64,000 nucleotides of DNA from contig NZ_CP100763.1 in NCBI RefSeq assembly GCF_024296685.1, forward strand, positions 868,001-932,000, in the 5' to 3' direction. Below, one piece after another: positions 10,681 through 47,336 of this stretch (its first letter is position 1; each line of letters begins with the position of its first letter). Source of the stretch: Natrinema marinum (GTDB taxonomy: Archaea; Halobacteriota; Halobacteria; Halobacteriales; Natrialbaceae). The position numbers were made by a program, and so were the translations under genes. Under the pieces are notes generated by a model. The model searched no databases, was not told where the DNA came from, and was given only the letters and a program-made list of their open reading frames with translations.

Positions 10681-10730
10681 CGGTTCGCCGGAACCGCGAC
10701 GCCTTTTTGCTTCGCTTCCTGAAACCGGGT

Positions 10731-11924
10731 ATGCACAACGTCGACGCCGCCGGCCTGGGGATCGGGGACGACCACCCGCCCCGGATCATGGGCGTGTTGA
10801 ACGTCAGCGAGGAGTCGCCGTACGATCCCAGCGTCTACGACGACCCCGGCGAGGCGGCCCGGTACGTCGACGAGGAGCTAATCGGCGAGGGGGCCGACAT
10901 CGTCGACGTGGGCCTCGAGTCGGCTAACAAGCGCTTCGACGTGCTCTCGGCCGAGGAGGAACTCGAGCGACTACATATCGCGCTCGAAACCATCGAGAGC
11001 GTCTCCGGCGACGCGGTCTTCTCGATCGAGACGCGCTACGCCGCGGTGGCCGACGAGGCACTTTCACAGGGGTTCGACATGGTCAACGACATCTGTGGCT
11101 TTGCCGACCCCGCGATGCCGACCGTCTGCGAGGACCACGACGCCGCGGTCGCGAAGATGGCGAGCCCGCCGGATCTGGAGCGACCGGGGGCCATCGAGGA
11201 AACCGACTGGACGAGCCGGAAGTCGGCGGAATGGGCCGCGAACGCGGACTACGTCGATGGGGTCTACGAGGCGTTGAAGCAGAACGGGCTGACCGACAAG
11301 ACGATCCTCGACCCGGCCTTCGGCGGCTGGAGCGAGGCCCAGACGCTCGAGGACGACCGCGAGACGTTCCGCCGGCTCCGTGAGTTCCGCGCGCTGGGCC
11401 GGCCGGTGCTGGTCTCGATCAACCGGAAGAACTTCCTCGGCGAGATCGCGGACCGCGAGACCGACGAGCGACTGCCGGTCAGCCTCGCCGCGACGTCGAT
11501 GGCCGTCGAGCGCGGCGCACACGTGATCCGGACCCACGACGTGGCCGAGACGCGCGACGCGGCCCTGATCGGGTCGGCCTTTACCGAACGCTCGAGTGCC
11601 GCCACGGACGGCGTGTCGATCTCGCAACTCGACGTTCACTCGAGCCGGGAGTTCCGGTCCCACCTTCGGGAGCGCGGCGTCGATCCGTCGTTCGCCGACG
11701 ACTGGCAGGCCCAGCTTATCGAACTCGAGGGGGTTGACGCCGACGCGGGCGAACGGCTGGCGTCGCTCGCGGCCGAGCACGGCGCGGTCGTCCAGTCCGG
11801 CTCCGACAGCCGGCTCCTGTTGATGGGTTCGACGACGGCCGTTTCTGCTTTTGCAGGCCGTTTGTCCGACGAAAACGACACTTTTGGTCCTCTCGGCGAG
11901 AAGCTGTCAGGGGTACTGCGTTAA
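10731..11924 (+). CDS. folP: Dihydropteroate synthase family protein
   Basis: Pterin-binding TIM barrel of 397 residues. Dihydropteroate synthase joins a hydroxymethyl-pterin diphosphate to an aryl amine in folate-type cofactor synthesis. Seen: the first signature as MGVLNVSEESP at 20-30 (GVLNxxxxS), a degenerate second signature IVDVGLESANKR, DMVNDICGF, and the end-of-barrel motif GAHVIRTHDVAETRDA. The last 130 residues form a separate acidic domain not found in bacterial FolP. The ATG at 10731 has a CCTTTTTGC box about 27 bases upstream; an in-frame start 8 codons earlier is less likely. mptE downstream supplies the pterin diphosphate, which supports a pterin role. The second signature differs enough that the exact substrate is uncertain. 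Confidence 0.85.
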   Translation: MHNVDAAGLGIGDDHPPRIMGVLNVSEESPYDPSVYDDPGEAARYVDEELIGEGADIVDVGLESANKRFDVLSAEEELERLHIALETIESVSGDAVFSIETRYAAVADEALSQGFDMVNDICGFADPAMPTVCEDHDAAVAKMASPPDLERPGAIEETDWTSRKSAEWAANADYVDGVYEALKQNGLTDKTILDPAFGGWSEAQTLEDDRETFRRLREFRALGRPVLVSINRKNFLGEIADRETDERLPVSLAATSMAVERGAHVIRTHDVAETRDAALIGSAFTERSSAATDGVSISQLDVHSSREFRSHLRERGVDPSFADDWQAQLIELEGVDADAGERLASLAAEHGAVVQSGSDSRLLLMGSTTAVSAFAGRLSDENDTFGPLGEKLSGVLR

Positions 11925-11931
11925 GAGAAAG

Positions 11932-12030
11932 CTTATGCCGGATGCTTAGAAAAGGGGGAGTGGACGCCGGGCGGCCTCCCGGGTAGGGGTACTTTGGAGG
12001 CGACCCCCGGCCCACAACACGGAATTATTG
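11932..12030 (+). ncRNA. Candidate structured RNA between folP and mptE
   Basis: The transcript-sense sequence folds by eye into one long hairpin. GTGG (about 11959) pairs with CCAC (about 12014), then after a two-base bulge GCCGGG pairs with CCCGGC, and GCCTCC pairs with GGAGGC around a 17-base loop. An ACA trinucleotide follows the stem directly. A TATA-like GCTTATGCC at about 11932 lies at a suitable distance upstream. It could be a small RNA, a leader element of mptE, or a folP 3' end signal. No known RNA family was recognised. Confidence 0.35.
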
Positions 12031-12187
12031 TGACACTACGTCGCCCAGTGGCGACTCGGCGCTGTGTCGCTCCGTCGGTCTCGGCCGTCCGCTCGAGTCG
12101 CCGGTAGAAGGCCGGTCGCCCGCCGCGAGACGACGGCCGAATCCGAGACCGAAGGCACAAGCGGATCGCACGCCGAGTACGGCTTAC

Positions 12188-12889
12188 ATGGAGTTCGACG
12201 AGTGGGAGCCCGTCTACGAAGCGATCCTGCGCGACTTCGGCTACGACCGCGCCGGCGACGAGCGGGGACGCGACCTTCTGGCGTCGTTCCTCGAGTCGTC
12301 GTTCGACTCCGCCGATCTCACGGCCGTCCCCGACGCGACCGTCGCCGTGGCGGGTGCCGGCCCGTCGCTCGAGCGCGAACGGGACCTCGAGCGAGCGCGT
12401 GAGGCCGACGCCGTCGTCGCCGCGTCGACCGCGGTCGATACCCTCGCGGCACACCGTATCGAGGTCGACTGCATGGTGACGGACCTCGATAAGAACCCCG
12501 AAACCGTCACACGGCTCACCGAATCCGGGGTTCCGGTCGCGGTCCACGCCCACGGCGACAACCTCGAGGCGATCCGCGCGGTCGTCCCGAACTGCGACCA
12601 CCGGTACGTCCTGCCGACGACCCAGGCCGAGCCGACGGCCGCGGTCCGGAATTTCGGTGGCTTCACCGACGGCGATCGTGCGGCGTTCCTCGCCGACCAC
12701 CTCGGCGCAGCCCGCCTCGCGTTCGTGGGCTGGGACGTCGACGATCCGTCGGTCGATCCGACGAAAGCCCGCAAACTCGAGTGGGCCGAACGGCTCCTCT
12801 ACTGGCTCGAGTCGCGCCGCGGCGAGCGCTTCGCCGTGCTCGACGGCCGGCGGGATGCGATCGAGACCGGGGCGCTCCCGCTCGAGTAG
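12188..12889 (+). CDS. mptE: 6-hydroxymethyl-7,8-dihydropterin pyrophosphokinase (archaeal MptE type)
   Basis: Archaeal MptE (DUF115 family) transfers pyrophosphate from ATP to 6-hydroxymethyl-dihydropterin and replaces bacterial FolK. The 233-residue protein shows the family pattern: VAVAGAGPSLERE (phosphate-binding turn after the first strand), VVAASTAVDTLAAHRI, the acidic VDCMVTDLDKNPE motif expected to hold Mg2+-nucleotide, VAVHAHGDN, and VGWDVDD near the end. It follows folP on the same strand after 263 bases; the pair gives two consecutive steps of pterin cofactor synthesis. No convincing TATA box was seen close to the ATG, so it may be read from the upstream element or from folP. Confidence 0.9.
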   Translation: MEFDEWEPVYEAILRDFGYDRAGDERGRDLLASFLESSFDSADLTAVPDATVAVAGAGPSLERERDLERAREADAVVAASTAVDTLAAHRIEVDCMVTDLDKNPETVTRLTESGVPVAVHAHGDNLEAIRAVVPNCDHRYVLPTTQAEPTAAVRNFGGFTDGDRAAFLADHLGAARLAFVGWDVDDPSVDPTKARKLEWAERLLYWLESRRGERFAVLDGRRDAIETGALPLE

Positions 12890-42510: not shown

Positions 42511-43983
<1,473 letters not shown>

Positions 43984-44056
43984 ACAGACCGGGACTGGGG
44001 CGATGCCCCAGCCCACACGGTTCGCGTTCGATCGACCACGTCGTCCGACCGGCCGA

Positions 44057-44085
44057 TCGGGCACCTTTGAACTACCAAGGCTAAC
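44057..44085 (+). other. 16S processing stem, 3' half
   Basis: TCGGG, CACC, the three-base bulge TTT (44066-44068) and GAACTACCAAGGCTAAC pair with the leader copy at 42378-42406. Two three-base bulges on opposite strands are separated by four pairs, the textbook bulge-helix-bulge. Confidence 0.9.
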
Positions 44086-44121
44086 ACTAGATGTCCCATC
44101 GCGTCCAAGCGCGATGGGAGT

Positions 44122-44193
44122 GGGCCCATAGCTCAGTGGGAGAGTGCCTCCTTTGCAAGGAGGATGCCCAGGGTTCGAATCCCTGTGGGTCCA
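44122..44193 (+). tRNA. tRNA-Ala (anticodon TGC)
   Basis: A 72-base tRNA in the 16S-23S spacer, as in most archaeal rRNA operons. Acceptor GGGCCCA/TGGGTCC (one G-T pair), D-arm GCTCAGTGGGAGAGT, anticodon stem CCTCC/GGAGG around TTTGCAA (anticodon TGC), T arm with GGTTCGAATCC, discriminator A. CCA is not encoded and there is no intron. Confidence 0.97.
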
Positions 44194-44219
44194 TCACTCG
44201 GTGGAAATCTCGGATCGTG

Positions 44220-44265
44220 CCCCTTAAGTGGGGCAAGGCCCGACGATTGAATCCGAACGAAACCG
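44220..44265 (+). promoter_or_regulatory. Spacer promoter before 23S
   Basis: CCCCTTAAGTGGGGCAAGGC, followed by GAATCCGAACG about 20 bases on. The core resembles P3 (CCCTTAAGTG) of the upstream region; spacer promoters at this place are known in halophiles. Confidence 0.5.
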
Positions 44266-44340
44266 ATGCACCAGCCCGTGTAAACGTGGCTGGGAAGGGT
44301 TAATGCAGGCCGGCCGTCTACCGGCGTGCAAATGAGACCG

Positions 44341-44377
44341 TGTGTACGTGTAGTCCAGGCGTCCACTGGACCCGTTC
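44341..44377 (+). other. 23S processing stem, 5' half
   Basis: TGTACGTGTAGTCCAG pairs exactly with CTGGACTACACGTACA (47386-47401). GCGTCC pairs with GGACGC, a three-base bulge ACT follows (44365-44367), and GGACCCGTTC pairs with GAACGGGTCC. Confidence 0.85.
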
Positions 44378-44422
44378 CCGGGTCACGATGTTGCACTTCG
44401 GTGCAACGCCGATCCGATGAAC

Positions 44423-47336
<2,914 letters not shown>

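Follow-up and report, generated by a model that had tools for sequence, protein, structure and literature searches.

What is the folded element that lies between folP and mptE in Natrinema marinum, and how might it act? The window, that is the whole 64,000-nt stretch of DNA analysed here, contains these two folate-pathway genes on one strand, and an earlier note made from the sequence alone had proposed that their spacer encodes a long hairpin, either a small RNA or a pterin-responsive leader. The three nested stems that it described (4, 6 and 6 pairs) are indeed present between 11960 and 12015, where GUGG (11960-11963) pairs with CCAC (12012-12015), GCCGGG (11966-11971) with CCCGGC (12006-12011), and GCCUCC (11974-11979) with GGAGGC (11996-12001). 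The predicted fold adds an apical stem absent from that note, in which GGGUA (11981-11985) and UACUU (11990-11994) close a GGGG loop. The TATA-like box ahead of the hairpin and the placing between the two genes were also described correctly, with the folP stop codon at 11922-11924 and the mptE start codon 170 nt behind the hairpin (Table 1). The mptE product matched no NCBIfam family at E 0.001.

Table 1. Features of the folP-mptE region, in window positions.
Feature	Position	Strand	Remarks
folP, dihydropteroate synthase	10707-11924	+	TIGR01496 above cut-off, PF00809; ORF taken from a mechanical list; true start uncertain
BRE-like run GAGAAAG of the promoter	11925-11931	+	purine-rich run plus TATA pattern in 97/98 loci
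TATA-like box CTTATG	11932-11937	+	YTTATR starts 26 or 27 nt ahead of the model in 96/98 loci
Class A RNA hairpin (model R1 positions 1-59)	11958-12017	+	R1 E 1.2e-13 in own genome; covariation
Near-invariant apical tip CGGGTAGGGGTAC	11980-11992	+	GGGTAGGGGTAC exact in 93/98 class A loci
AT-rich stretch GGAATTATTG behind the hairpin	12021-12030	+	genus-conserved, mean column identity 0.975 over 12018-12033 (20 genus rows)
Degenerate copy of the AGYVAC element, AGTGGCGAC	12047-12055	+	by eye; no exact pattern match here
mptE, 6-hydroxymethylpterin diphosphokinase-like (ATG at 12188)	12188-12889	+	PF01973 (MptE-like) E 1.2e-17

Judged from this single sequence, the hairpin is not above chance. 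The folding energy of a 116-nt stretch is about that of its shuffles (z -0.31; 73 of 200 fold at least as well), and for a 65-nt stretch z is -1.15, with 26 of 200 shuffles at least as stable. By conservation, in contrast, it is far above chance, and the case for selection on the hairpin is therefore made by comparison across genomes and not by the folding energy of one sequence.

A 105-nt DNA query found matches in all 29 of 29 genomes of the genus, and a 91-nt query in 148 of 391 genomes of the class. From 90 loci, 12 duplicates were removed and the remaining 78 aligned, yielding 52 distinct trimmed sequences, 49 of which made up alignment A1; the covariance model R1 was built from these 49 together with a hand-written structure. 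At E 0.001, R1 matched 345/391 class genomes with a single match each, except for one genome (G160) with two, and we refer to this family as class A. The genome of the window has a single good R1 match, the next best having an E of 0.9. When a phylum sample was searched at E 0.01 with strict filters, which lose weak matches, 71 of 392 genomes were matched, every one in the order of the window. A pattern scan of named genomes gave at least 120 stretches; among the 80 listed, 77 bore haloarchaeal names and 3 the name 'uncultured archaeon', and Haloferax species were among the carriers listed. A virus-borne origin was dropped, since one exact pattern found 0 stretches in viral contigs. Over 20 rows of the genus, mean column identity is 0.981 across the hairpin (11958-12017) compared with 0.791 over 12034-12049 and 0.878 for the end of folP. 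The AT-rich stretch behind the hairpin (Table 1) was seen by eye in many loci outside the genus too.

An Rfam search, which the earlier note had recommended, matched no family (Rfam 15; E 5 at the window hairpin, E 1 across 20 divergent loci). Literature searches turned up nothing recognisable as class A RNA, an earlier listing as an unnamed transcript, for example in supplementary tables, being possible; the two papers found for the string GGGUAGGGG appear to deal with G-quadruplexes. The class A hairpin is, as far as sequence comparison can tell, a previously uncatalogued folded RNA of haloarchaea standing in front of a folate-pathway gene.

The stems also covary across the class. R1 was run on 99 chosen loci, giving one match in each (weakest E 0.0046) and 96 distinct rows in the resulting alignment. 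In this alignment, which is fitted to the structure and in which the counts are of sequences and not of events, 90.8% of pairing cells hold a pair and two-sided changes occur in 14 of the 18 pairs. There are 148 two-sided cells where shuffling gives 55.3, and the covariation score of 0.304 compares with 0.104 or less when the partners are slid. A MAFFT alignment of 49 sequences, made independently, shows two-sided changes at 5 of the 13 pairs predicted. The innermost (apical) helix is nearly without variation in class A, so that its support comes from class B, described below, and from its very constancy. Covariation had been named in the earlier note as a check to make and unconserved stems as a refuting result; the stems are conserved and covary well beyond the shuffles, and class A is supported as a conserved structured RNA.

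The usual archaeal promoter spacing would place the start site at the foot of the hairpin. Since the TATA-like box keeps its fixed distance of 26-27 nt, the transcript should begin with the hairpin, which is thus expected at its 5' end. The consensus in H. volcanii is TTWT (TATA box) and CGAAA (BRE), according to the available text of PMC4983044. Downstream of the hairpin, mptE follows directly on the same strand in 98/98 loci, and it also follows in 79 of the 80 named loci listed, the remaining one being cut 45 nt after the hairpin start. One of the 99 R1-matched loci, L303, is without an adjacent mptE. The upstream gene is less constant: folP was found in 90/98 loci, short flanks possibly accounting for some of the 8 misses, and in L149, L158 and L172 the RNA is kept before mptE with no folP match in 2.2, 4.6 and 3.3 kb upstream, respectively. 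Of the 46 class genomes that R1 did not match, 17 were inspected. In 10 of these, which span four families (f3, f4, f6 and f8), folP runs by eye up to or into mptE, the hairpin and the promoter are both missing, and no copy was found elsewhere at E 0.001. Four others hold a diverged copy that was matched later at E 0.0046 or better, two have neither folP nor the RNA, and one is masked. It appears that hairpin and promoter have been lost together repeatedly. Their joint absence, together with the synteny with mptE, points to a cis-acting mptE leader. Of the two roles first proposed, the leader therefore fits the mptE copy better, and an independent small RNA is less likely here, though it would fit class B.

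The distance between hairpin and mptE nevertheless speaks against a simple leader. It ranges from 10 to 315 nt over the 98 loci (170 nt in the window), a spread that fits poorly with direct start-codon control. In addition, an AGYVAC element occurs 8-50 nt behind the hairpin in 51 of the 98 loci, where shuffles give 5.5 on average. In 35 loci with a short spacer and 18 with a long one it lies at a median of 27 nt and 26 nt, respectively, from the hairpin, whereas the medians to the mptE ATG are 10 nt and 75.5 nt. Since the element tracks the hairpin and not the ATG, we assign it to the RNA rather than to the start codon, as though this were the end of the RNA. A trans-acting small RNA in its own right, encoded by chance between folP and mptE, would account for this as well as for the strong promoter of its own, the long spacer in the genus and the stand-alone appearance of its class B relatives; class A could be stand-alone likewise. 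However, the class A hairpin is never found away from mptE in the 98 loci, it is missing where the two genes are fused in inspected genomes, and the spacer is 37-42 nt in 37/98 loci and only 10-14 nt in four. We consider such a small RNA improbable for class A.

Several further roles were considered for the hairpin. Antisense pairing to rRNA through the 12-nt loop, the only part tested, was rejected, as there was no perfect complement of 8 nt or more in the 23S and 16S loci; three 7-nt complements were found, every one of them within the 5' flanking part of the 16S locus. The genome has two rRNA operons, one of which lies in the window at 42511-47335 (16S 42511-43984, tRNA-Ala 44121-44195, 23S 44418-47335). 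Base pairing between the loop and the start region of mptE was also rejected: in the 68 loci whose spacers do not exceed 50 nt, the longest run averages 6.2, compared with 6.8 for shuffles. As to a leader peptide, an NTG codon precedes GAN in 81 of 95 distinct cores (GTG 39, ATG 16, TTG 14, CTG 12), and in 58 of these 81, above one third, the loop's UAG shares its frame. Because the first codon base is not conserved, we read the in-frame excess as a conserved stem length, and a leader peptide was discarded, if not in the strictest sense. The trinucleotide ACA behind the hairpin, which the earlier note had pointed out, is real in this genome and would suit an H/ACA pseudouridylation guide RNA, but it is not a feature of the family: ACA lies within the last 5 nt in only 27/99 members and A-N-A in 49/99. 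A crude K-turn/K-loop test for two GA steps in the apical region gave 0/99, and Rfam returned no match. On the poor conservation of ACA and K-turn the guide reading was rejected, and we give it hardly any credence.

The near-invariant tip is not confined to class A. Its sequence GGGTAGGGGTAC occurs once in the window against 0.01 expected, and across 97 genomes the tip 13-mer was found at 46 places away from any known class A match, compared with 18 matches for a reversed control pattern. Of 45 such places examined, 20 looked by eye like promoter-proximal hairpins; 25, including all of these 20, form the apical helix. A flanking helix exceeding in length that at 95% of random positions was present in 10 of the 45, among them L341, which was judged by eye to be chance. 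The non-class-B copies are thus suggestive of genuine hairpins. In four genomes of one genus (g35), the loci L359, L360, L372 and L373 carry another hairpin with the class A tip and a TATA-like box ahead, which in the first three stands after msrA and before a YdjM-like gene. Long hairpins with this tip in L303/L368, L369 and L344 end in GGACATTTTTCG, as would a small RNA that carries a terminator of its own. In L362 and L325, from Halobacterium-type genomes, the tip is directly followed by CCCGAGATCTTTTCG, which suggests a very short RNA because this string resembles the termination motifs of H. volcanii, AGATC and T stretches in the available text of PMC7237163. A link of the Halobacterium tip copies with a ThiF-family gene, located about 100 nt behind them in L361 and L362 but not in L364 and L365, was rejected. 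In L322, L335, L338 and L356 the 13-mer lies in similar flanks, apparently within a conserved coding gene, and these copies were taken as unrelated.

The best defined of the other families, class B, combines its own promoter, a stem of GGUGGACAG and CUGUCCACC, the tip as in class A and an AUUUAUC tail. By DNA query it is present in 27/121 genomes of the family, in one to three copies each. The 30 loci lie in about 17 gene contexts with no common neighbour, and behind 23 of the 30 a rough gene caller placed a gene on the opposite strand. Among 27 distinct copies, 97.0% of cells pair, against 95.4% in shuffles, and 99.4% in the apical helix. Two pairs of the outer helix and none of the apical helix have two-sided changes, further pair types are no more frequent than in shuffles, and one slid control equals the covariation score of 0.079. 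The class B structure is thus well kept, with modest covariation support, and class B looks like a dispersed, multi-copy, stand-alone RNA gene. That the tips are homologous is judged from 12-13 nt, and the 46 non-mptE places stand beside about 18 occurrences expected by chance; both points count against the explanation proposed below.

The copy in the genome of the window (G000:C1:3529837-3529939; L336:3838-3940) lies outside the window, with a creatininase-family gene on one side and a convergent mptD (PF04038) on the other. The mptD neighbour would suit a riboswitch, with mptE controlled by direct binding of a pterin or folate metabolite to the leader, as would the position of class A between two folate-pathway genes, its fixed association with mptE and its near-invariant tip on a freely varying scaffold. 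However, the mptD gene is convergent and is not found beside the other class B copies examined, and the scatter of class B and other copies over so many gene contexts argues against a purely pterin-specific role. Furthermore, no riboswitch family was among the Rfam results above, and a 6-pair stem with a 4-nt loop is small for an aptamer. A riboswitch is in our opinion unlikely. Other tip copies also lie close behind TATA-like boxes, which, with the expected 5' end behind a very conserved promoter, could indicate a general element of the 5' end, serving a strong promoter as a cap for stability or transcription initiation and having no dedicated partner. A stem that only stabilises would have no need of a tip identical in so many loci (Table 1), and R1 finds a single copy in 344 of the 345 genomes that it matches; this explanation seems to us very doubtful.

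We tentatively propose that class A is the 5'-terminal structured leader of the haloarchaeal mptE mRNA and that its tip is bound by a trans-acting partner that sets mptE expression, an explanation that we hold with somewhat less than even confidence. Transcription would start at the conserved promoter just behind folP, so that the RNA opens with the hairpin. The long helix, free to vary in sequence as long as its pairs are kept, would serve as a scaffold presenting the near-invariant apical hairpin CGGGUA-GGGG-UAC. Since this small hairpin recurs on unrelated scaffolds, in the leader and in stand-alone RNAs, a common binding partner is suggested, and because the other tip copies share no neighbour a protein is preferred. 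Recognition of the tip by this partner, most likely an RNA-binding protein, would set mptE expression in whichever direction, either through translation initiation, the start codon often lying 10-49 nt after the hairpin, or through read-through. On the stand-alone RNA genes, those of class B and further ones, the tip would be recognised by this partner too, these RNAs acting as decoys or as separate targets. Beyond the leader itself, the mptE leader and the dispersed small-RNA families might together form an unrecognised post-transcriptional regulon of haloarchaea, with Csr/Rsm-like logic and one predicted RNA-binding protein, but we regard this as rather unlikely. The recurring tip offers a ready bait for an archaeal RNA-binding regulator, the leader could explain the control of a folate-pathway step in archaea, and its covariation and wide occurrence, which includes Haloferax species amenable to laboratory work, make it a clear test case.

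Among known systems, archaeal H/ACA guides resemble the window hairpin in the ACA behind it, and differ in that ACA and K-turn features are not conserved in class A. The THF and Moco RNA riboswitches are likewise structured leaders on genes of pterin or folate metabolism, whereas class A matches no Rfam family and its tip also occurs away from pterin genes. The intergenic small RNAs of haloarchaea, as presented in the available text of PMC4983044 and PMC5852579, are promoter-borne, and class B resembles them. According to the available text of PMC5852579, only 27% of the verified H. mediterranei RNAs have conserved sequences in other Halobacteria, in contrast to class A with its 345/391 class genomes. 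There is also a likeness to a bacterial system of post-transcriptional control. Bacterial CsrA/RsmA proteins regulate through hairpins in mRNA leaders and are countered by the decoy RNAs CsrB/RsmZ. In the haloarchaea one small hairpin motif similarly appears in both an mRNA leader and separate small RNAs, the tip being common to class A and class B and the homology of the two resting on it; the motif and the domain of life are different, each haloarchaeal RNA carries one motif and not many, and the binding protein is a predicted one.
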